From the NCBI GenBank assembly GCA_948466335.1, contig CAOKAE010000008.1, forward strand, positions 1-64,000: a DNA stretch of 64,000 nt. The letters are read 5' to 3'. This document shows positions 33,718-48,364 of this stretch, piece by piece. The notes beneath the pieces were generated by a model. It ran no database searches, was not told the origin of the DNA, and saw only the letters and a program-made list of their open reading frames with translations. Source of the stretch: an uncultured Coriobacteriia bacterium (GTDB taxonomy: Bacteria; Actinomycetota; Coriobacteriia; Coriobacteriales; QAMH01). The translations under genes and the position numbers were made by a program. The stretch's first letter is position 1. Each line of letters begins with the position of its first letter.

Positions 33718-33751
33718 AAAATGTGGCAGGTGCAGGCACCTGTCACATTTT
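33718..33751. terminator. Near-perfect 16 bp hairpin after the LuxR gene
   Basis: AAAATGTGGCAGGTGC pairs with GCACCTGTCACATTTT with one mismatch and a 2-base loop. The A- and T-rich ends let it act as a terminator in either direction, for the LuxR gene ending at 33809. The sequence style resembles mobile hairpins seen elsewhere in the window. Confidence 0.65.
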
Positions 33752-33808: not shown

Positions 33809-35266
33809 CTACTTCGCACCGCTTATTTCTGTCGATACGGCCATAGACTCATCAACGAGATTAATGAGCTCTTGTTGTGAGTGAACACCTAGCCGCTTGT
33901 ATATCGCATTAATATGAGCTTTGGTGGTTGATCTTGAAATGTAGAATTTCTTGCTGATGTACTCACTGTTCCTGCCACGGGCAAGCAGTTCAAAGACCTC
34001 GGCTTGGCGAGTCGAAAGGCTGTAGCTGCTAATCAGCGCCTGCACGGCAACGCGAAATCGATCAATTGACTCAGCCTCTGACACTCCACCTTGTCTGCTA
34101 ATGAGAATCTCATCAGCGCCAGGATACTGTCGCTTGAAAACATACGAGCTCGCCATAAGAAGCCCCATGAATATAACGAAAATCACAGCAGCTCGTTGAT
34201 AAATATCTGCATCGATACTTGTTAGCGTGAGAGCTGTTCCCCACCCGGCAAACCCACCCAAACAAAGCGAGAACATGCCAGAACCAAAAGCGCATATAGA
34301 CGAGATGTGGCAAAAGCGCACTTGCTCCATCTGCGCCCTCATAATCATGTAGATATTCATGGATATCATGATGCCCAGACCACCTGCGCATAAATTAGTC
34401 GCAAGTCCCTCGGTGAAGGGCAAGGCGAGCACAAATGGCGCTACACGCACCACATAACTGTTCAGCATGATGTCTTCGAGCATGGCGCCACTTCGATTTA
34501 TGACGAGCGCAACAACCCCCTCGACTACAACAAGCAGCGCAAATGCGGCAACGACCATAGGAGTGCAGTCGTTTCCTGCCATAAGGAGGTTTGCAGCAAG
34601 GCCCATGAAAATTCCATCGAGTACAGTGGCGGCAACGCTATGCTTCGAAATAACATATTCGGCATCTGATTGCGCCTTGCTCACCGATGTCCATCCATCT
34701 TCATTGCATTTAAAGAGCACTATCAGCAGCACAAGCGAGGCAATAGGCAGAAGCTGCGAGAGAACAAAAGATGCAAGCGGCTCAAGAAAAGCAGAGAGTG
34801 CTATGAAGACGCCGCTGAACGCAGCCGCAACCCCCAAGGCGAGGAAACCACGACTCGATTGACTGAGAAACTGCAGCCAAAGCTGTCCCATGAGCGCCGA
34901 TAAAAAAGAAGCAAGGGCAATTGAAAGAGGCGTAAACCAAAGAAGCTCATAAGCGAAAGCAACGACCAGGGCCACAACCAGGAGAGCCCCCAATACCTTG
35001 CGAAAGTTAAGGCGGTCGTAAAGCAGGCGCATAATATAGAAGAATACGCCACAACCCAGGAGGTAAAGCCCAGGGTAAATCCCACTTGAAAAACCACAGC
35101 AAAGGAAAAGCGGGCCAGCACGGAAGAAAAGAAATGAGCAAATCCAGAGAGCCAGCAGAGAGAACCCGACAAAAGCGCAGAGGGTCGAGGATGAAAAAGT
35201 ATCCTTCTCGATGTTGTCCGCTTGCCCCTCTGCCATGATGCTTCCCATCATCCAGCATATCTCCAT
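33809..35266 (-). CDS. Membrane-embedded LuxR-family regulator
   Basis: Predicted transcription regulator with a polytopic membrane sensor. Residues about 20-385 carry around 10-12 hydrophobic segments (for example ALLVVALVVAFAYELLWF and VVAAFALLVVVEGVVALVI). The C-terminus is a LuxR helix-turn-helix: LSTRQAEVFELLARGRNSEY then ISKKFYISRSTTKAHINAIY. No kinase or receiver domain is present. I choose the ATG at 35266, nine bases after AGGAG, because an ATG at 35275 touches the Shine-Dalgarno sequence. It follows the molybdoenzyme cluster on the same strand after a hairpin terminator. Such membrane LuxR proteins commonly sit next to reductases in Eggerthellaceae, so it probably controls the cluster. 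Ligand unknown. Confidence 0.88.
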   Translation of the reverse strand: MEICWMMGSIMAEGQADNIEKDTFSSSTLCAFVGFSLLALWICSFLFFRAGPLFLCCGFSSGIYPGLYLLGCGVFFYIMRLLYDRLNFRKVLGALLVVALVVAFAYELLWFTPLSIALASFLSALMGQLWLQFLSQSSRGFLALGVAAAFSGVFIALSAFLEPLASFVLSQLLPIASLVLLIVLFKCNEDGWTSVSKAQSDAEYVISKHSVAATVLDGIFMGLAANLLMAGNDCTPMVVAAFALLVVVEGVVALVINRSGAMLEDIMLNSYVVRVAPFVLALPFTEGLATNLCAGGLGIMISMNIYMIMRAQMEQVRFCHISSICAFGSGMFSLCLGGFAGWGTALTLTSIDADIYQRAAVIFVIFMGLLMASSYVFKRQYPGADEILISRQGGVSEAESIDRFRVAVQALISSYSLSTRQAEVFELLARGRNSEYISKKFYISRSTTKAHINAIYKRLGVHSQQELINLVDESMAVSTEISGAK

Positions 35267-35339
35267 GCCGCACATCTCCTATAGTCTAGCAATGCCGATA
35301 AACGAGCCTGAGCTTTGTCGGCAAGGGGGACAAATTGCC

Positions 35340-35373
35340 CATCGGCCGGTGATATTATCATCACCGGCCGATG
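35340..35373 (-). terminator. Terminator after the SlyD-like gene
   Basis: Perfect 14 bp stem CATCGGCCGGTGAT with a 6-base loop, 6 bp after the SlyD-like stop codon. It marks the end of the molybdoenzyme operon and gives the LuxR gene a separate transcript. There is no T-run beyond AATTTG. Confidence 0.75.
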
Positions 35374-35379
35374 TAACCT

Positions 35380-35814
35380 CTACTTCACATCATCAAGCCA
35401 GATCCTGTATTCCAGAGTCTTGCCCGCAAGCGGATGGTTAAAGTTGATATGAACGTGCTCGTCAGTAGCATCAGCTACGTACGCGGGCTGCTTGCTTCCG
35501 TCCGTTGGATTAGTGCGGAAGAGCACATCGTTAATCTTCAGCTCGTAGCCATGCTCCATCATTGCACGCGGATACCATTGGGCAAGTTCATCATGATAAA
35601 TTCCGTACCCAAGCTCAGGCGGCACTATAACCGTTTTGTCTTGACCGGCTTCCATGCCCACGATGGCATTCTCGATACCACGTGGAAGTTTCATGTCGCC
35701 AAGCATAATCTGCAAAGGATCAGATTCGCTCCTCACATCTATAGGTTCCTCGCCAGACACACCACCACGATAATGGATGCTCACAACGCTCCCGAAAGCA
35801 GCTTTCTTGCTCAT
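35380..35814 (-). CDS. SlyD-like FKBP-type prolyl isomerase
   Basis: Peptidyl-prolyl cis-trans isomerase with a chaperone flap. 144 aa: a short FKBP domain (VSIHYRGGVSGEEPID, LPRGIENAIVGMEAGQDKTV, PPELGYGIYHDELAQWYPRA) with the SlyD insert-in-flap segment, then HVHINFNHPLAGKTLEYRIW. The His/Cys-rich metal-binding tail of E. coli SlyD is missing. It is the last gene of the molybdoenzyme operon, 27 bp after the upstream 4Fe-4S gene, so it may help fold or load the oxidoreductases (inference). Confidence 0.88.
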   Translation of the reverse strand: MSKKAAFGSVVSIHYRGGVSGEEPIDVRSESDPLQIMLGDMKLPRGIENAIVGMEAGQDKTVIVPPELGYGIYHDELAQWYPRAMMEHGYELKINDVLFRTNPTDGSKQPAYVADATDEHVHINFNHPLAGKTLEYRIWLDDVK

Positions 35815-35841
35815 CGAACCCTCATCTCAACGCGTCTCTTG

Positions 35842-36345
35842 CTAGTTTTCCGTTGCGTCAACATCCTCGACACTAATTTCATCGACCTTGGTGTCATGAC
35901 GATGAACTGCATAGTTGGCCTTACCGGTGCCCTGGACCTCAATATGCGCCGCCTTGTGCGCCCCTTTGTTTTTGGACACAAAGGGTCCACGTGCCGCAAT
36001 GGGATCATATTGGGGAACCACCAGAAACTGCTTGGTCTTTGTAGATAGCTTTATCGCTAGATCCTCAACAGGACCATAGGTGATAATGTTTGCCAAACAG
36101 TGATGCACGCACATGGGTTCCTTGCCCTTAGCCGTACGAGCGGCACACAGATCGCACAGATCAGTAACGACGGGCCAATTATTGAAATTCCAGTGGCCCT
36201 CCCGCGTCTTCCAGGGACCATCGACTAAAACTTTGATCCCCGTCTCGCTCGCAGAATAGTCATGCTCTTCCTGGCAGGTGACCTGACAGGACCCGCAGTT
36301 TGTGCAGTATTCGTAATCGATAAGCAATCCGTACTGTGTCATCAT
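35842..36345 (-). CDS. 4Fe-4S ferredoxin-type electron-transfer subunit
   Basis: Predicted electron carrier for the molybdoenzyme encoded directly upstream. Two cluster-binding sets: Cys14, 17, 20, 24 (YCTNCGSCQVTC) and Cys64, 67, 79, 83 (LCDLC...CVHHC), enough for two 4Fe-4S clusters in a DmsB-like fold. 167 aa with a Lys/His-rich tail. No twin-arginine or Sec signal, so cytoplasmic. Its first ATG follows the oxidoreductase stop codon without a gap (a second ATG is next to it), so the pair is translated together. Confidence 0.9.
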   Translation of the reverse strand: MMTQYGLLIDYEYCTNCGSCQVTCQEEHDYSASETGIKVLVDGPWKTREGHWNFNNWPVVTDLCDLCAARTAKGKEPMCVHHCLANIITYGPVEDLAIKLSTKTKQFLVVPQYDPIAARGPFVSKNKGAHKAAHIEVQGTGKANYAVHRHDTKVDEISVEDVDATEN

Positions 36346-38721
36346 CTACACCAGCTTCCCGAACTTATCCCAGACTTCAGTCATATCCGTGTCGTAACTC
36401 TCCTCAATGGGCTCGATCTTGCACACGAAGCACTTGTTGGGAGCGCCAAATCCGAGCTTTCCAAAATGGAAGTTCGGAAGAAGGTTGTTGATATTGGAAC
36501 GGAAGTTGCCGTAGAGGTTGGGCTCACTCCCCTCCTCTTCGGGGAACCACCACGCATGCTGAGCATGCACTGTCTTCTCATCAACGATTTCACTCACACG
36601 GGCCTTCTGCACGCACTCGCCAAACGGACTCGAGAGCCTCACCCATTGCCCGTCAGCAATTCCATATTTCTGGGCAGTCACCGGATTAATCTCAGTAATG
36701 GGATCAGGGTTGAGAGCTCGAAGGCGTGGCACCTGACGGTGCTCGGAGTGGAAGAAGGCGGTGGTACGCGCGCCGGTGGTGAGAATAAGCGGGTATTCCT
36801 CCATAAGCTCGGGATCGGCAGGACCAAACTGCGGCTCCTCGTAGTATGGAAGCGGGTCCTCGCCAAATCCGTGAAAAGCGGTCGACCAGAGCTCTATGCG
36901 ACCCGTAGGCGTTGCGAAACCAGGCGTACCGTCTTCACGCATGAGGCCTTTCTCGTATTTATAGTATTCAATGGGAATCTGACAAACGACATTTTCAGCA
37001 ACCTTGTCGAAATACCTGCCCTCTTCGCGCTTGCCAAGCCTCAGCGCCTCCATAAATTCTTTGGCGCTCCTGAAATTGAATTCCTTGTCCCACAGCTCAG
37101 GACGGAGATGCCTTCCCAGTTCGTAGCACAACTCATAGTCCGTCTTGCAATCACCTACAGTGATTGCTTCGTGCATGAATCCAGCCGTCACCGTGCAAGG
37201 CGCATAGTGCGTAAACACAGTTCCGTCACGCTCGGCAACCGTTTTGAGCGGCAAGAAGATGTCACATGACGCTTCAATCGAGGGGTTCATGAATGTGTCA
37301 AAGCCAATGCAAAACTCGAGAGACTTGACGATGGCATCATGCCAGCGCTCTGGTTCCATCGAGGTGCAGCTCATAAGATTGTTACCCGCATAGAAGCCCA
37401 TCTTAATAGGATAGGGCTCTCCTGTTTCCAGGGCTTTGAGCATGAGATCTGCCTGTGCATTGAGTATGACCATGCAGTAAGCTGGATATTGGTCAAGGCC
37501 AACCATCTTGGCGAGCAGGTCATCGCCCACACCTTTGTCAAAGCCAAAGCCCACTTCATTATGGCCCGCCGACGAATTCGGGAGAAGTTGACCTCCAGGC
37601 GCATCAAGATTGCCCGTGATAGCCATAAGTGACACGATGACCTGTGCATGCTGCATACCGTTGGTCTTTTGGTCGGCGGAAAGACCCCATTGGATAGCGG
37701 CTGGATTGCCAGCAGCATACATACGCGCAGCAGCATAGATATCTTCAACGGGGACATCGCAAATTGTTGCTGCCTTTTCAGGAGGCATGGTGCTGCAGCG
37801 CTCGGCCAGCTCATCAAAGCCATAGCACCAGTAGCTCACAAAATCATGATCGTAGAGATCTTCCGAAATGATGATATCAAGCATCGCCATGCCGAGAGCA
37901 GTATCAGTGCCAGCGCGCAATTGAAGGAATATATCAGCTCTCGATGACAGCCAAGTCACACGAGGGTCGATTACAATAAGTCGCGTGCCCCGTCGCATCG
38001 CATCGATTACCGCGTGACCAAAGAAGCCGTCAGGACTCGATTCAAGCGGAGCTTTGCCCCAAATGAGAAGCACCTCGGTAAGGTCATAGCGAGGATCGTC
38101 CCAGCGACCAGGCAGCGCGCCTGCGTAATCCCATTCGGGATAAGTTGTGCCGCCGATATAGGCAATAGCAGCCAGGCGTGGCGTGTAGCAGGCATAACCT
38201 GATTGGGTATAACAGAAGTTTGGCGTACCGAAACACATGGAGCCAAACGGAAAGAACGTGCCGCCCTCACGGCCAGTTCCTGCAAACACCACAATTGATT
38301 CACGACCATATTGCGCAGTGATTCGGTCATATTCCGCCTTGATGATATCGAACGCTTCGTCCCAAGTGATGGTTTCCCAAGCATCGGCATTGCCTCTATC
38401 CTTGGGATCACGCTTCATCGGATGCAAGAGACGCGCGGGATTATAGATGTAGTCTTTGAGTGCAATGCAACGCGGGCAGAGTCGTCCCTGAGTTACGGGG
38501 TTGTTCTCGTCGCCCTCCACACGCTCCAGGCGGCCCTCAGCATCCACATAAAGCTTAAGGCCGCAGCCAACGGGATGACATCCTGGTGGTGACCAGGGGC
38601 TCGTGCGCGTAACCGTCATGCCATCCTCTTCATAGCGCCAGGGCTTGCCAATATCGTTCACGTCAGAGAGCGTGTCAAGCTTCACCACGGACGCCTTCTT
38701 GAAGAAATCGTCTTCGCTCAT
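36346..38721 (-). CDS. Molybdopterin-dependent oxidoreductase, catalytic subunit 1
   Basis: DMSO-reductase-superfamily enzyme, 791 aa, predicted to bind a bis-pyranopterin Mo or W cofactor. The N-terminal cluster region has SPPGCHPVGCG (Cys48, Cys53) and GRLCPRC (Cys82, Cys85). It is followed by FAGTGREGGTFFPFG, LLIWGKAPLESSPDGFFGHA, IDPRVTWLSSRADIFLQLR and the C-terminal cofactor-closing GARTTAFFHSEHRQVPRLR. No signal peptide, so cytoplasmic, unlike periplasmic DmsA. It resembles the branch with acetylene hydratase, pyrogallol transhydroxylase and gut catechol dehydroxylases. Substrate cannot be read from sequence. Paired with a 4Fe-4S protein; 82 bp after the second pair. Confidence 0.92.
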   Translation of the reverse strand: MSEDDFFKKASVVKLDTLSDVNDIGKPWRYEEDGMTVTRTSPWSPPGCHPVGCGLKLYVDAEGRLERVEGDENNPVTQGRLCPRCIALKDYIYNPARLLHPMKRDPKDRGNADAWETITWDEAFDIIKAEYDRITAQYGRESIVVFAGTGREGGTFFPFGSMCFGTPNFCYTQSGYACYTPRLAAIAYIGGTTYPEWDYAGALPGRWDDPRYDLTEVLLIWGKAPLESSPDGFFGHAVIDAMRRGTRLIVIDPRVTWLSSRADIFLQLRAGTDTALGMAMLDIIISEDLYDHDFVSYWCYGFDELAERCSTMPPEKAATICDVPVEDIYAAARMYAAGNPAAIQWGLSADQKTNGMQHAQVIVSLMAITGNLDAPGGQLLPNSSAGHNEVGFGFDKGVGDDLLAKMVGLDQYPAYCMVILNAQADLMLKALETGEPYPIKMGFYAGNNLMSCTSMEPERWHDAIVKSLEFCIGFDTFMNPSIEASCDIFLPLKTVAERDGTVFTHYAPCTVTAGFMHEAITVGDCKTDYELCYELGRHLRPELWDKEFNFRSAKEFMEALRLGKREEGRYFDKVAENVVCQIPIEYYKYEKGLMREDGTPGFATPTGRIELWSTAFHGFGEDPLPYYEEPQFGPADPELMEEYPLILTTGARTTAFFHSEHRQVPRLRALNPDPITEINPVTAQKYGIADGQWVRLSSPFGECVQKARVSEIVDEKTVHAQHAWWFPEEEGSEPNLYGNFRSNINNLLPNFHFGKLGFGAPNKCFVCKIEPIEESYDTDMTEVWDKFGKLV

Positions 38722-38803
38722 GTCGTTCCTTTTCTCTCGTCGAGGTGCTGACCGTTGCTCGCCAGCACCTCCGCCTCATAGTTAGTGCAGGAAAAGCAGT
38801 CTG

Positions 38804-39151
38804 CTACTCGCGCGTTGCCAGCAACGCCCAGCGAGTTTTGCCATCCATCTTCTTGGCAAGATCCTCAACATCGCCGTAGTACATGCACCAGGCTTGGCAA
38901 TGCTGAACGCAAGAAGGCATCTTTCCCTTCGTGGTTCGCCCCATGCAAAGGTCACAAGCCTTGGTAATCACAGGAAGCCAGGTCCACTCCCAATGGTCGG
39001 GAGCAGGCTTATCGGTGTACTCATAAGGACCCACTTCAGTTAGCTTGATTCCGAATTCGCCTTCCGGAAGCCCAAGAGTTTTTTTGCAGGCAACCTCGCA
39101 AGAGTGACAACCTGTGCAGTAGTCATAGTTGATAAGTATTCCCTTGGTCAT
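38804..39151 (-). CDS. Short 4Fe-4S electron-transfer subunit
   Basis: 115 aa ferredoxin-like partner for the oxidoreductase encoded 24 bp upstream. Cys12, 15, 18, 22 (YCTGCHSCEVAC) and Cys66, 69, 81, 85 (ACDLC...CVQHC) make two 4Fe-4S sites; Cys89 is extra. Same domain plan as the 167 aa protein at the other end of the cluster but without its tail. Cytoplasmic. No membrane anchor gene of the NrfD or DmsC type is nearby, so the electron donor is unclear. Confidence 0.9.
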   Translation of the reverse strand: MTKGILINYDYCTGCHSCEVACKKTLGLPEGEFGIKLTEVGPYEYTDKPAPDHWEWTWLPVITKACDLCMGRTTKGKMPSCVQHCQAWCMYYGDVEDLAKKMDGKTRWALLATRE

Positions 39152-39175
39152 TTTTATGCTCCTGTCTCTGTCGTG

Positions 39176-41734
39176 CTATTCAGCCAAACGTGCGCCGGTC
39201 TTCAAGTCGAAGCGCTCGTTATTTGCAGGATCAAACAGCTCATTACTGAAGACTTCATATTCCATGCCGGCATCCATAGCCTTGTGGAATCGGTCAATCT
39301 CGTCTTGCCTTGGAGAGTTGACCTTCTTATACCAGGGGAAATTGCCGGTCTCCGCAATCTGCTCGTAAGGCATCTTGTCACCTGGCTCGACGGGATAAAT
39401 CTTGCAGATCATTGACTTAATTGCAGAGCCCACACCTCCTTGACCGGTCACAAAAGCCTTGGTGCAGTTGTTCGGATTTGATTCAAAAGTGCCGAAAAGA
39501 TAGGGGGCCTCAGCTTTGCTCTCCGGGAACCACCACCCGTGCTCAGCATGGATGGTCTTTTCGTTCACGCGTGGAGACAGCTTCACCTTCTGCTTGAAAC
39601 GACCGTGGTCGTTTTCAATCCAAATCCACTGGCCATCCTTCACGCCGTACTTCTCGGCAGTCTTGGGATTGACGAGCACCAGGGGCTCAGGGTGCAGCTC
39701 TCGCATGGTGGGCAGCTGGCGATGCTCGGAATGGAAGAACTCGAAGGAACGGCCACCGCAAGTCAAAATGAGCGGGTAGGTTTCCATGAGCTCCGGAGTA
39801 GATATGGGACCTTCGGGAGGCTCGACGTGGAATGGAGTGTCGGAAAGGCCCCAGTAGGTATATAGCATGGGGGTAAGTTCCAGACGACCCGAAGGAGTAC
39901 CGTATCCAACGCTGCCGTCAGGACGATAGAGACCCTTAGCAGCTTTGTTGTAGGAAGCGTTAAATTCATCGTAAGCATGGCCACACATCGCGGGATCTTC
40001 GACCAGCTCTTTCCAGGTGTGCTTGAAAAGCGTGCTTCCCGAACTCTTAATTCCAGCATTATCGGCTGCTTCAGAAGTCGCAAACGCTGAGCCAGAGCCC
40101 TCCCGCAGATACCAATCGAGCCAATCTATATCGCTGTCCCACTGATTAAAGACCTCGGGATTCAGGCGCTTTCCAAGCTCAACGATAATCTGCTCATCAG
40201 ATTTTGCCTCGTAGAAGTCAGCAACCTTCACCATTGCACGAGCCGGCGTCCACCAAGTGCGAGCCGAATTACGCTCGGCGCTCATAGCGACCGGCAGTAC
40301 GATATCCGCCAGCGCTACAGATGTAGGCGTCATGTAAGGATCCGCATTTACGATAAATGGGATTTTTTGCATAGCCTCATACAAGCGTGCAGCATCCATG
40401 CCAGGACACGAAAGCGTATTCGAGGATTGAATCCACATCATCTTGATGGGATAAGGGAATCCTTCTTCGATAGCCTGGAGCAAGCCGTCAGAGGATGCAT
40501 GCGCGACAAAATCGCCGCCATCGATAGAAAGCGCAAAATTGTTGTTGAGCTTCTTAATACGCCATTCTTCTGGCGTGAAGTGCTCGCCCGTCGCATAGCC
40601 CGCGTTGATCTCGAATGCATTGTGCAGGAGTATGTTGCCACCAGGAACATCAATATTTCCACAAATTGCCATAAGGTCACAGCCGGCAAGACAAAGCGAC
40701 ATGGCTGAAAGCTGCTGGTCAAAGGCAAGGCCCCATTGAATTGCGCCGGGCTTTGCCGAAGCGTAGAGGCGAGCAGAGTTGCGAATATCATCCGCATCAA
40801 GATCGCAAATTGGTGCAGCCCACTCCGGAGTCATGTCCTTCACAGACTCCTTGAGCTTGTCCAGCCCCATGCACCACAAATCAACGAACTCGTGATCGTA
40901 GAGGTCTTCCTCAAGAATGACGTTGAGCCATGCGCAGGCAAGGGCCGCGTCGGTGCCAGGACGAATCTGCAACCAATAATCTGCACGGGCACCCCACCAT
41001 GTAAGCCGCGGGTCAATCGATATGATGCGTGTGCCCATCTGCACGCACGGAACAAGCCAGTGGCCCACAAAGCCATCAGCATTCGAAGCTAGGGGTTCAT
41101 TACCCCAAACAACCAGAACCTCGGGAGGATTCCATTCGGGGTTGGCATAGCGAGCGGGGTGTCCTTCGGAGGCGTCCACTACAGGAAAGTCGCCAAAAGG
41201 AGCCACGGCACCACACACGCGTGGCATATAGCAAGCAAAGCCTGTGAAGCCAAAAGTGGAAATATTAGGCGTCTTTAAGGCAGCTTGGCCAAAAAAGGGC
41301 ACCTGCCAGTTAATGTTGCGGCCTGTACCGTGGACGCAGATGATTGCGTTTCCGCCGTTAGTCTCCCAAATCGAGCGCACTTTTTCCTCGATCTCGTCAT
41401 AAGCCTCATCCCACGAGATGCGCTCCCATTTGTTCTCGCCGCGTTCTCCGGCCCTACGCATGGGATATTTCAGTCGATCCGGGCTGTTGATAGACTCCAC
41501 CAAATTCAAGCAGCGAATGCAGAGCTTTCCGTTCGTACACGGATCCAGAGGGTCGCCTTCGATTTTCTCGACTTTGCCGTCCTTTGTGTAGAGCAAAATT
41601 CCACATGAGGTGTGACAGCCGGGAGGCGAGTAGTGATACGTGCGGGTTACCGTGTAGCCATCTTCTTCCCAACGCCACTCACCTTCGTGATAGGCCTCTT
41701 TATCGATGCTATCCAAAAACTCCTGATAGTCCAT
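39176..41734 (-). CDS. Molybdopterin-dependent oxidoreductase, catalytic subunit 2
   Basis: Second DMSO-reductase-superfamily catalytic subunit, 852 aa. It is related to its neighbour but not a recent duplicate. N-terminal cluster residues are Cys40 and Cys44 (SPPGCHTSCG) with GKLCIRC (Cys72, Cys75). Cofactor-fold landmarks: HGTGRNINWQVPFFG, VLVVWGNEPLASNADGFVGH, IDPRLTWWGARADYWLQIRP and GGRSFEFFHSEHRQLPTMR. No signal peptide. GFACYMPR corresponds to GYACYTPR in the other enzyme; its Cys is a candidate metal ligand (inference). First enzyme gene after the MFS transporter. Substrate unknown. Confidence 0.92.
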   Translation of the reverse strand: MDYQEFLDSIDKEAYHEGEWRWEEDGYTVTRTYHYSPPGCHTSCGILLYTKDGKVEKIEGDPLDPCTNGKLCIRCLNLVESINSPDRLKYPMRRAGERGENKWERISWDEAYDEIEEKVRSIWETNGGNAIICVHGTGRNINWQVPFFGQAALKTPNISTFGFTGFACYMPRVCGAVAPFGDFPVVDASEGHPARYANPEWNPPEVLVVWGNEPLASNADGFVGHWLVPCVQMGTRIISIDPRLTWWGARADYWLQIRPGTDAALACAWLNVILEEDLYDHEFVDLWCMGLDKLKESVKDMTPEWAAPICDLDADDIRNSARLYASAKPGAIQWGLAFDQQLSAMSLCLAGCDLMAICGNIDVPGGNILLHNAFEINAGYATGEHFTPEEWRIKKLNNNFALSIDGGDFVAHASSDGLLQAIEEGFPYPIKMMWIQSSNTLSCPGMDAARLYEAMQKIPFIVNADPYMTPTSVALADIVLPVAMSAERNSARTWWTPARAMVKVADFYEAKSDEQIIVELGKRLNPEVFNQWDSDIDWLDWYLREGSGSAFATSEAADNAGIKSSGSTLFKHTWKELVEDPAMCGHAYDEFNASYNKAAKGLYRPDGSVGYGTPSGRLELTPMLYTYWGLSDTPFHVEPPEGPISTPELMETYPLILTCGGRSFEFFHSEHRQLPTMRELHPEPLVLVNPKTAEKYGVKDGQWIWIENDHGRFKQKVKLSPRVNEKTIHAEHGWWFPESKAEAPYLFGTFESNPNNCTKAFVTGQGGVGSAIKSMICKIYPVEPGDKMPYEQIAETGNFPWYKKVNSPRQDEIDRFHKAMDAGMEYEVFSNELFDPANNERFDLKTGARLAE

Positions 41735-41809
41735 GAGTTCCTCCTTACATTAGGCACTTCTTTGATTTGAAAGAGGCGCCCCATACAGAAGGCGCCTCTA
41801 GATATGTAG

Positions 41810-43045
41810 TTATTTAACTTTGCGTAAACCAATGAGCAGACACGCGATGGCAATGATGTAGCAGGGGATGAGCACGACCCAGGTCGCCATAGTCCACCCG
41901 AACGCCACAATGGCGTTGCCCATGAACATTGCACCAACGAACATGCCGGTATTCTGAAAAAAGCAAACGAGTGCATTTGCTGAGGGAACAAGCTCCTCAC
42001 GCCTTGCAAGCTCGGGCGCAATAGTCATAACGAGTGCCGGCACAAAGCCACCAGCAATACCACCCAGCACGATGATGCCGTAATAGGCCTCAACGGAATG
42101 TGATGTGAATACCAAGCAGGTATAAACGAAGCCTGCCGCCAGGCCTACAAAAAGCACCCACTTGCGCGTATGCAGCACGTCGGAGAGTTTGCCCGAAATC
42201 GGAGCGAAAATGGCACCGAGTACTGCTGCGCCGCTCGCAATGAGGCCTGCTACAGTCAGAGTGGCCCCAACATTGTCACTGGTCAGATAGGTAGTGAAGA
42301 AGCCGTTAATGGCCATATAGGCCGCCTCATCAAAGAAGAAGCACAAGCCGAGCGCCCACAAAGCAGGAATCATAAAAACAAGCTTGGTTGCGTGCTTGAC
42401 CGGAGCCGCGTCAACATCGACCGGCTCGCCATTCCATCCCTCGGGGGCATTGCGATAGAAAATCATGAACAATATAAGCGCGACGACATCGAATACGATC
42501 ATCATCCACCATATTCCCTGCCAGCTCCATCCAGCCTGGTCTACAAGGGCGCTGTAGAGCGTCGGGCAAATGAACATAGCTGAAGCAACCCACATGCCCC
42601 AAAGACCGAATGCTAGGCCACGCTTATTGCCAGGGAACCACGGGAAGAGCGCCGACGCACCTGCCACGTTCATAAAACCCATGCCAGCACCCTCAATAAC
42701 ACGAGAGATTATGAACATAGTGAGGTTGCTAGAGAGAACACCAACTAGGCCGCCAACAATGCCGCATGCTGCTGCAAGCGCAACGGTAAAACGTAGGCCA
42801 ATCTTCGGAATCATCCAAGCAACAGGAAAGGCAAGGACAAAGCCCATGATGTAAAACGCCGCAATAATCCAACCGATAGCATCAGGACTGATGCCAAAGT
42901 ACGGCATGAGTATAGGAGCAAGGGTCGTTACCTTTGCCATATTTGAAGATGCGGTCCACGCCGCAAGAAACGTGACTATGAATACCACCCATCCATAGCC
43001 AACCTTTTTGTCCGGATTTACCGGCTGCACTGCCATTTGCTCCAT
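41810..43045 (-). CDS. MFS transporter of the molybdoenzyme cluster
   Basis: Twelve-helix major facilitator, 411 aa, in the cytoplasmic membrane. It probably imports the substrate or exports the product of the oxidoreductases. VVFIVTFLAAWTASSNMAKV starts helix 1; a short cytoplasmic loop after helix 2 precedes GLRFTVALAAACGIVGG, and the mid-loop has WNGEPVDVDAAPVKHATKL. I start at ATG 43045 (MEQMAVQPVNPDKK), eight bases after AAGGAGG; the frame stays open for 79 non-homologous codons upstream. First gene of the cluster, 75 bp before oxidoreductase 2. Confidence 0.92.
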   Translation of the reverse strand: MEQMAVQPVNPDKKVGYGWVVFIVTFLAAWTASSNMAKVTTLAPILMPYFGISPDAIGWIIAAFYIMGFVLAFPVAWMIPKIGLRFTVALAAACGIVGGLVGVLSSNLTMFIISRVIEGAGMGFMNVAGASALFPWFPGNKRGLAFGLWGMWVASAMFICPTLYSALVDQAGWSWQGIWWMMIVFDVVALILFMIFYRNAPEGWNGEPVDVDAAPVKHATKLVFMIPALWALGLCFFFDEAAYMAINGFFTTYLTSDNVGATLTVAGLIASGAAVLGAIFAPISGKLSDVLHTRKWVLFVGLAAGFVYTCLVFTSHSVEAYYGIIVLGGIAGGFVPALVMTIAPELARREELVPSANALVCFFQNTGMFVGAMFMGNAIVAFGWTMATWVVLIPCYIIAIACLLIGLRKVK

Positions 43046-43497
43046 TTCCCCAACCTCCTTAATCGACTTGCATGCGCCCCTCACCTTCCTGATGGCCCTC
43101 TTCCGGCACCGAATGACCGTCACTACGGACACCTCTTCAGTGTCACTAAAAGAGAAGAGGGCCAAGGGGGAGGAAGGAGAGGAGTGGCGATTACACCTGC
43201 TTTTGCAGGCTTTATTGCCGGCGTAATAGTAGTAAGGCGCATCTCGATTCGGGAATTCTCCCAAGCGGTCGATTTGCGCCAAGAGACATGCGAAAATTTT
43301 CCCTGACCTAGATATAGGAGCTCTAAACCCATCAGGTTTAGAGCTCCTATCAAGGGATTTTGAGAATCTCAGAGCCTAGAATTCCGCCAATGGCAATTGG
43401 CTTTCGTTCGTGCTCAATCGGAGGAAACGCAAACAACTGGAAATTTGCTCAGAGAGAGCCTGCATCATGTCAGTCAGAAACGGGGTTGAGACTGAGG
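43046..43497. other. 452 bp region upstream of the MFS gene
   Basis: Must hold the promoter of the molybdoenzyme operon, though I see no clear -35/-10 pair. Visible elements are a near-palindrome GGGAATTCTCCC (about 43245-43262), a purine-rich strand near 43155-43185 and a strong hairpin at 43314-43350. No coding signature. Confidence 0.5.
43314..43350. terminator. Perfect 16 bp hairpin ahead of the MFS gene
   Basis: ATAGGAGCTCTAAACC and its exact complement flank a 5-base loop. No long T-run follows in either direction. It lies between the Rpn remnant and the MFS leader and could insulate the operon from upstream transcription. Confidence 0.55.
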
Positions 43498-47422: not shown

Positions 47423-48364
47423 TTAGAGGCCGAACTCCTCATAGAGAGACTCGCGGAAAGCCTCGTCTTTTACCTGCCGTTGGAGATCGTCGATGCGATT
47501 TGCTCCAAGCAGCGCATTGACAAGCTTTTCAATCCGCTGCTCACCTTGCTCAATACCCTGTGCAATGCCCTGCTCGATACCCTGCTCGATACCCTGCTCG
47601 ATACCCTGCTCGATACCCTGTTCGATGCCCTGTTCGATGCCTTTCTTCAGGCCCCTCTCAATCGCTTCGCTCTCCTTGACGCGCAGCATCATCTCGGTTG
47701 TCATAATGCTGCCGACCCATCCTTCATCGGCGTAGGCCTGACGTGTTGCATCCGCAAGCTCCATAGTCAGATCATCCCCCTCCACCGGTTCATTCGTCTT
47801 CACGTATTTTAGCAGGGAGCGAACTTCTGGTGGGACATCCGTCATACTTGCAGAGGTGTTCGCGATAACAACATGTACCCCATTGTTGAAATTGGCAGCC
47901 GGATCGTCCTCACACTTCAATTCAAATCTATAGAGCGCAAGACCGGACCCAAAATGATCATATTGGCAAACTGACAGCATGTAGAGTTCGGGCAAATCCT
48001 TGTACGGCTGCCCCTTACCTAGGGCTCTCGTGTCTATCATTGCCTGGTAGTATCGAAGCCTCCGCTCGAAATCATCGCAACGCTCGGTCTGCATCTCTAT
48101 TTCGACGACTTCCCCGCTACCGGCAAGCACAGCATCCATGCGAACCGATTTGCGCAAGGCGGCCGGGATGCTTGTCTCAACCTCGAAGAACTCGAGCGCT
48201 CCTATCTTAATTCCCAGAAGGCGCTCTGCGAAACGACGAGCAAGGTCCGGATTATCTGCCATGACCTTTGCGAAGGTATAGCCAGATGCAAACACAAGCC
48301 CTTCGCAATCAAGCTCGAACTGAGATTTTTCGCCCGTCAGCGCGGCTTTTCCACAGCTCATCAT
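47423..48364 (-). CDS. Rpn-family recombination-promoting nuclease/putative transposase
   Basis: Rpn/PD-(D/E)XK protein, 313 aa. The nuclease core is visible as RMDAVLAGSGEVVEIEMQ with the Asp and Glu-x-x ligands, followed by RLRYYQAMIDTRALGKGQPY and VSVCQ-like LSVCQYDHFG. Family members promote recA-independent recombination in E. coli; this copy is untested. Residues about 240-272 are a run of GIEQ/GIAQ tetrapeptides encoded by near-identical 12 bp repeats. Its start has GAAAGGGG upstream. It sits between rplA and rplJ. Confidence 0.9.
   Translation of the reverse strand: MMSCGKAALTGEKSQFELDCEGLVFASGYTFAKVMADNPDLARRFAERLLGIKIGALEFFEVETSIPAALRKSVRMDAVLAGSGEVVEIEMQTERCDDFERRLRYYQAMIDTRALGKGQPYKDLPELYMLSVCQYDHFGSGLALYRFELKCEDDPAANFNNGVHVVIANTSASMTDVPPEVRSLLKYVKTNEPVEGDDLTMELADATRQAYADEGWVGSIMTTEMMLRVKESEAIERGLKKGIEQGIEQGIEQGIEQGIEQGIEQGIAQGIEQGEQRIEKLVNALLGANRIDDLQRQVKDEAFRESLYEEFGL
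47546..47641. repeat. 12 bp tandem repeats in the Rpn gene
   Basis: Eight units of CTGCTCGATACC type (plus strand). Four consecutive units (47570-47617) are identical and the outer ones differ by 1-3 bases. They encode GIEQ. The unit is a multiple of three, so copy-number change would alter protein length and not the frame. Confidence 0.9.

Follow-up and report, generated by a model that had tools for sequence, protein, structure and literature searches.

Seven adjacent genes on the minus strand of a 64,000-nucleotide stretch of DNA from an uncultured Coriobacteriia bacterium (contig CAOKAE010000008.1; we refer to the whole stretch as the window) probably form a catabolic or respiratory operon in which two Gordonibacter-type catechol dehydroxylases are combined with an importer and a sensor. 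We call the two catalytic subunits MoA and MoB. The kind of system is known, and the MoA/MoB enzyme pair is conserved and uncharacterized. Among the dehydroxylase clusters of Coriobacteriia, 121 of 126 have no known substrate (PMC11585353).

A seven-gene cluster with the anatomy of a Gordonibacter-type dehydroxylase locus

The cluster spans positions 33809–43045. All seven open reading frames that a preliminary description had proposed there are present, each with a start codon and a Shine-Dalgarno-like leader, and their families, which we assigned with Pfam and NCBIfam profiles, agree with that description. The order is MFS, MoA, FeS1, MoB, FeS2, FKBP, and LuxR, followed by rpoB, and the first six genes are separated by gaps of 75, 24, 82, 0, and 27 bp. 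MoA (39176..41734) and MoB (36346..38721), both bis-molybdopterin guanine dinucleotide (bis-MGD) proteins, have the Molybdopterin, Molydop_binding, and Fe4S4 families. Next to each is its small 4Fe-4S electron-transfer subunit: the two-cluster protein FeS1 for MoA (38804..39151; 115 amino acids, 9 cysteines) and FeS2 for MoB (35842..36345; 167 amino acids, 8 cysteines). An FeS1-type gene lies downstream of 55 of 68 MoA-clade genes and an FeS2-type gene accompanies 29 of 32 MoB-clade genes.

MoA and MoB are predicted to be soluble, cytoplasmic enzymes. No twin-arginine translocation (TAT) motif was found in the first 45 residues of MoA, MoB, FeS1, FeS2, or FKBP, these five proteins have no hydrophobic segments, and there is no DmsC/NrfD-type gene within the cluster. 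The absence of export signals and of a membrane anchor had been read correctly before. In contrast, Eggerthella-type catechol dehydroxylases have a TAT signal and a membrane-anchor subunit. Gordonibacter-type catechol dehydroxylases are known to consist of a two-subunit cytoplasmic enzyme that is accompanied by an MFS transporter and a LuxR regulator with 12 transmembrane segments (12-TM) (PMC7028382, PMC11887054, PMC9734109), and the locus matches these in its clade, its small 4Fe-4S neighbors, its lack of TAT signal and anchor, and its nearby MFS and LuxR genes. The suggestion that the system was undescribed is only partly right: it is not supported for the type, and the enzyme pair is at most 47% identical to any characterized enzyme.

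The first gene (41810..43045; 411 amino acids; Pfam MFS_1) encodes a transporter that is likely an importer, and its start is likely at 43045, as originally placed. Among the loci that we compared, its best match (53%) is an MFS protein whose gene adjoins a different MoB-family cluster, present in G. pamelaeae and Gordonibacter sp. 28C.

MoA and MoB belong among the catechol dehydroxylases

We assign MoA and MoB to the Gordonibacter-type catechol dehydroxylase family, because both nest within it in phylogenetic trees, share its C-[YF]-x-P-R motif, have a histidine in place of Asp13 of acetylene hydratase, and lack a TAT motif. In a FastTree tree of 114 rows, MoA belongs to the superclade of Eldh and Dodh, and MoB to that of Vadh. 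An IQ-TREE tree of 58 rows, rooted on acetylene hydratase and with SH-aLRT support only, gave the same placement. In both trees, each protein falls within its own well-supported subfamily, and the clade that encloses the two also contains Eadh, Dodh, (+)-Eldh1/2, and Vadh.

The characterized enzymes were located by inference (from locus tags, gene context, or a primer) and not by matching accessions. (+)-Eldh1/2 are an adjacent pair (about 74% identical to each other) at a position that fits GPA_25810/25800; the Eadh genes are three dehydroxylases on one Ellagibacter contig and their Gordonibacter orthologs, one of them near an Amidohydro_2 gene; and Vadh was recognized by its context of two transporters and a LysR regulator. 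Dodh was found with the published forward primer for quantitative PCR (qPCR), with one mismatch (its reverse counterpart had no match in that locus), and Gp Hcdh was placed tentatively, by its length of 770 amino acids.

The best characterized match of MoA is (+)-Eldh (46–47%, with the 47% being to Eldh2 of G. pamelaeae), and that of MoB is Vadh (45%). Both are below the published threshold for isofunctional enzymes, which is at least 72% identity (PMC11585353); for (-)-Eddh and Gp Hcdh, the comparison was to inferred genes only. Neither protein, then, groups closely with any enzyme whose substrate is known, and the earlier statement that the substrate cannot be named from the sequence stands. 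The Gordonibacter dihydroxyenterolactone dehydroxylases (+)-Eldh1 and (+)-Eldh2 (PMC11887054), which represent the nearest characterized superclade to MoA, are encoded by paired genes and act on one substrate, but they are close sisters, whereas MoA and MoB are distant from each other (40% identity). The dihydroxyphenylvaleric acid dehydroxylase Gs Vadh (PMC11887054) shares the C-H-P-V-G-C cluster motif with MoB and belongs to its superclade; in contrast to the window, the genes around Vadh include two transporters and a LysR regulator, and FKBP is missing.

We rejected several specific identities. The locus is not the eam cluster, as its enzymes are just 39–44% identical to the Eadh genes and there is no Amidohydro_2 gene. 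Dodh is excluded because the published qPCR primer maps to another gene, and Vadh because it maps, via its LysR regulator and two transporters, to a neighboring cluster in strain 28C.

There is a slight chance that MoA or MoB has already been characterized under another name, such as Gordonibacter (-)-Eddh or Gp Hcdh. Close to (-)-eddh, the genome of G. pamelaeae DSM 19378 encodes 11 dehydroxylases that are uncharacterized (PMC11887054, 2025). In G. pamelaeae, a dense dehydroxylase region at 3.37–3.51 Mb holds the MoA and MoB orthologs; this region is very probably that hot spot, with the two orthologs among the enzymes listed there as uncharacterized. However, the published tree sets (-)-Eddh beside Eldh1/2, and two other Gordonibacter enzymes (53–57%) are nearer to Eldh than MoA is. 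Also, Gp Hcdh falls on another gene by both length and clade, Dodh is elsewhere according to its primer, and the positions of Vadh and Eadh follow from gene context.

For both MoA and MoB, the closest solved structure is acetylene hydratase (PDB 2E7Z), which belongs to the same bis-MGD fold family and also has a cysteine metal ligand. This could point to a redox-neutral hydration or hydroxyl transfer, akin to acetylene hydratase or pyrogallol transhydroxylase, both of which the preliminary description had listed, along with Eggerthellaceae catechol dehydroxylases, as enzymes of this general type. The catalytic residue of acetylene hydratase, Asp13, lies beside an Fe-S cysteine. In our alignment, the corresponding position is a histidine in MoA (H41), in MoB, and in the dehydroxylases compared. 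(The [4Fe-4S] cysteines of MoA are C40, C44, C72, and C75.) Furthermore, the C-I-G-N segment of acetylene hydratase is replaced by C-Y-x-P-R in MoA and MoB, as in the dehydroxylases, and the metal-ligand cysteine (C168 in MoA and C178 in MoB) is part of a C-[YF]-x-P-R-like motif that is common to dehydroxylases and absent from acetylene hydratase. In the tree rooted on acetylene hydratase, which lies outside the dehydroxylase clade, both proteins nest among dehydroxylases. Pyrogallol transhydroxylase (AthL) did not match MoA at an E value of 1e-3, and its partial match to MoB (4e-14) was far below that of acetylene hydratase. The 4Fe-4S partner genes suggest external electron flow. On the basis of the motif alignment and the rooted tree, we rejected an identity as acetylene hydratase or transhydroxylase, and we consider redox-neutral chemistry to be very improbable and dehydroxylation to be very likely. 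Acetylene hydratase is only the nearest solved structure and does not define the family; it had already been identified as the closest relative of catechol dehydroxylases (eLife 2020, PMC7028382). Pyrogallol transhydroxylase is remote. (An AlphaFold model of MoA had low confidence, with a predicted local distance difference test [pLDDT] score of 62, and was not used.)

A conserved pair that may act in succession

Orthologs of MoA (81–83% identity) and of MoB (83–84%) are found in Gordonibacter and Raoultibacter. The two are accompanied by FeS1, FeS2, and FKBP in each of five genomes: Gordonibacter sp. 28C, G. pamelaeae 7-10-1-b, Gordonibacter sp. Marseille-P2775, Raoultibacter timonensis, and another with the latter's genus code. 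These Gordonibacter and Raoultibacter clusters also have an additional enzyme (MoA', 55%) and two more MFS genes. More distant versions of the cluster are found in uncultured Coriobacteriales, many of them metagenome-assembled genomes (MAGs), and isolate codes suggest termite and ruminant sources. Across 13 pairs, the identity matrices of MoA and MoB are correlated (Mantel r of 0.76, p of 5e-5, with species relatedness uncontrolled).

We propose that the MFS carrier would import a catechol- or pyrogallol-bearing aromatic compound, which the LuxR protein, a transporter-fold receptor fused to a DNA-binding domain, would sense so as to activate the genes. With FKBP assisting the maturation of MoB-FeS2, MoB-FeS2 and MoA-FeS1 would each reductively remove one ring hydroxyl, using cytoplasmic electrons that arrive via the 4Fe-4S subunits. 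MoA and MoB would most likely act in succession on one compound, a pattern known from Eadh1 and Eadh2 with urolithins. Precedents have been published (PMC12771579, PMC7028382, PMC9734109). In particular, a cluster of two dehydroxylases that act in sequence has been published for ellagic acid: the eam cluster (Eadh1/Eadh2/Eah), which converts ellagic acid to urolithin C and for which sequential dehydroxylations were demonstrated (PMC12771579), shares with the window two cytoplasmic bis-MGD dehydroxylases with 4Fe-4S partners, one or more MFS transporters, and a LuxR gene. It differs in that its enzymes belong to other clades and in having an Eah-type decarboxylase, which the window lacks, while FKBP is extra in the window. 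Two cytoplasmic enzymes with an importer and LuxR control were already part of the preliminary description, and the sequential action that it suggested is plausible; we view action on the same substrate as an even call.

Several observations weigh against a two-step pathway. MoA and MoB are on separate contigs in genomes G009 and G045, and MoB occurs without a close MoA in G135, G253, and G259. In Gordonibacter, the linked genes are part of a hot spot with many other dehydroxylases, and neighbors there need not share a pathway. The two enzymes, which belong to different superclades and are each also found without the other nearby, may serve different substrates. In that case, they would be independent tools for two different catechols, with a shared importer and regulator, and the clustered dehydroxylases of E. 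lenta do take distinct substrates (PMC11887054). On the other hand, several families of the order have such linked pairs, whose divergence is correlated, the pair in the window is in one compact unit that is apart from the host genome's other paralogs, and the 12-TM LuxR proteins that have been studied so far are inducer-specific (PMC9734109). We regard two separate substrates as a serious contender, if the less probable one.

Orthologs with over 80% identity are present in cultured members of Gordonibacter and Raoultibacter, and a Gordonibacter strain is available as an expression host, so the pair is directly testable.

An FKBP gene that travels with MoB

The sixth gene (35380..35814; Pfam FKBP_C) encodes a SlyD-like FKBP-type peptidyl-prolyl isomerase. 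Considering non-redundant dehydroxylase genes with enough downstream sequence, we found an FKBP homolog downstream of 30 of 32 MoB-clade genes, 0 of 68 MoA-clade genes, and 6 of 118 other dehydroxylase genes (Fisher's exact test, p of about 1e-28, uncorrected for relatedness). This rule for MoB-family genes is new here. The FKBPs align with a conserved core and an N-H-P-x-A-G-K segment. Dedicated accessory proteins are required by Eggerthella-type enzymes (PMC11887054), and we lean toward the view that this FKBP is dedicated to the MoB subfamily and acts as its maturation factor or chaperone. Our literature search, which mostly did not extend to subscription papers, found nothing relevant on dehydroxylase clusters with FKBP or O-demethylase genes. 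The association delimits a subfamily and points to a possible maturation factor for enzymes that are notoriously hard to express.

A sensor with a predicted transporter fold

The last gene of the cluster (33809..35275) encodes the 12-TM LuxR regulator, with a Pfam GerE helix-turn-helix (HTH) domain at its C terminus. As had been described, it is a membrane LuxR: in an AlphaFold2 model (mean pLDDT of 79), twelve long N-terminal helices, arranged as 6+6, precede the HTH domain. In a Foldseek search of the PDB, the matches were MFS transporters, among them a bacterial one that was solved with 3-phenylpropanoate and with 1-hydroxynaphthalene-2-carboxylate (E of about 4e-5; TM-score, normalized by target length, of up to 0.70). 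The N-terminal domain is therefore predicted to adopt an MFS-transporter fold, which is new here. DadR, HcdR, and CadR of E. lenta likewise combine a 12-TM N-terminal domain with a LuxR HTH domain and are encoded beside a dehydroxylase, but the paper that describes these 12-TM regulators mentions no MFS fold (PMC9734109). Such a fold suggests a way in which 12-TM sensors may bind small phenols.

A possible link to O-demethylation

Neighboring methyltransferase genes narrow the substrate class. In genome G111, which has the same genus code (g63) as R. timonensis, the METHYLTRANSFERASE link takes the form of two URO-D methyltransferases and a B12-binding corrinoid protein, encoded in the interval from MoA (83%) to MoB (83%). 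That MoA and MoB orthologs flank a corrinoid O-demethylase module in a Raoultibacter-genus genome is new here. A similar module lies beside MoA-family genes in G. pamelaeae, in Adlercreutzia/Enterorhabdus, and in several MAGs, and a lone URO-D gene is downstream of MoA in G002, the genus-mate of the window's organism. In three near-complete genomes, 5 of 7 URO-D loci are no more than about 10 kb away from a MoA-clade gene; such neighborhoods make up 1.4–2.0% or so of each genome (binomial tail, 7e-8).

Our best reading is that the substrate is an O-demethylated plant phenol, exposed when a methoxylated plant aromatic is demethylated. This would be done by other gut microbes, because the organism has no URO-D match. 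Some results speak against the link. The three genomes were chosen after the pattern was noticed, so the URO-D count is descriptive; no URO-D match was found in Raoultibacter timonensis, in the window's genome, or in the Gordonibacter genomes 28C, Marseille-P2775, and G071, and the last four would depend on compounds demethylated by others; and in G187, the URO-D matches are not near the MoA-family genes. For the window's genome, the methyltransferase link is circumstantial, and on balance we see the case for such a phenol as evenly poised. Still bolder, and unlikely as a whole, would be an undescribed cascade in gut, rumen, and termite-gut Coriobacteriia, in which corrinoid O-demethylation of methoxylated lignin- or tannin-type aromatics leads to two dehydroxylations, with MoB as an FKBP-dependent subclass and a repurposed MFS transporter as the sensor.

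In some termite-type MAGs (loci L064, L067, L068, L113, and L180), a short-chain dehydrogenase/reductase (SDR) gene is kept between MFS and MoA, which hints that a ketone or a ring is reduced there in an additional step. We did not use a phloroglucinol-reductase-like SDR as a part of the pathway because it matched only generic families similar to gluconate dehydrogenase. A close copy of the SDR was not found in the window's genome, where an empty search result shows little.

Host genome and possible horizontal acquisition of the cluster

Judging from its sequence, the host is a small uncultured relative of Gordonibacter, in the order that includes Gordonibacter and Raoultibacter. Its draft genome (1.89 Mb in 35 contigs) has about twenty related molybdoenzyme genes, as counted with one protein query. 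The GC content at third codon positions (GC3) is 0.53–0.59 in the cluster, as compared to 0.75–0.9 for host genes such as rpoB and 0.8–0.92 for most other dehydroxylases. This low GC3 suggests that the cluster was acquired beside rpoB by recent horizontal transfer, which agrees with the window's MoA being nearer to its Gordonibacter and Raoultibacter orthologs than to that of G002 (67%). Separately, a Firmicutes-labeled MAG (Peptococcaceae AS23ysBPME_312; L127 and L133) has MoA-like and MoB-like genes, due to either horizontal transfer or misbinning.

Elsewhere in the window's genome, adjacent orthologs of (+)-Eldh1 (82%) and (+)-Eldh2 (77%) are present (G000:C1:242930-248035; L002 and L003), so the organism may make enterolactone-type products. 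A candidate ortholog of hydrocaffeic-acid dehydroxylase (82%) is found at G000:C2:107312-109657 (L006) and in Gordonibacter sp. 28C (L205). In L205, the catalytic subunit has other residues at the positions of its [4Fe-4S] cysteines (G-S-H-P-V-G-Y), which sets it apart from the other family members that we compared.

Other features near the cluster

Between FKBP and LuxR, where a terminator had been described, there is indeed a hairpin, a perfect 14-bp inverted repeat (35340..35373, minus strand). It is a possible terminator, but this role is unproven, as a T-tract is absent and our terminator scan did not list it. Immediately upstream of the MFS gene, another perfect inverted repeat, of 16 bp (43314-43350), could be an operator or the terminator of the preceding gene. 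Near rpoB, a repeat element (33720-33749) is present as a single copy in the genome. Close to the cluster, at 47423-48364, is a gene of the PD-(D/E)XK transposase family with low GC3; it is followed by an MFS gene whose LysR regulator is divergently oriented.

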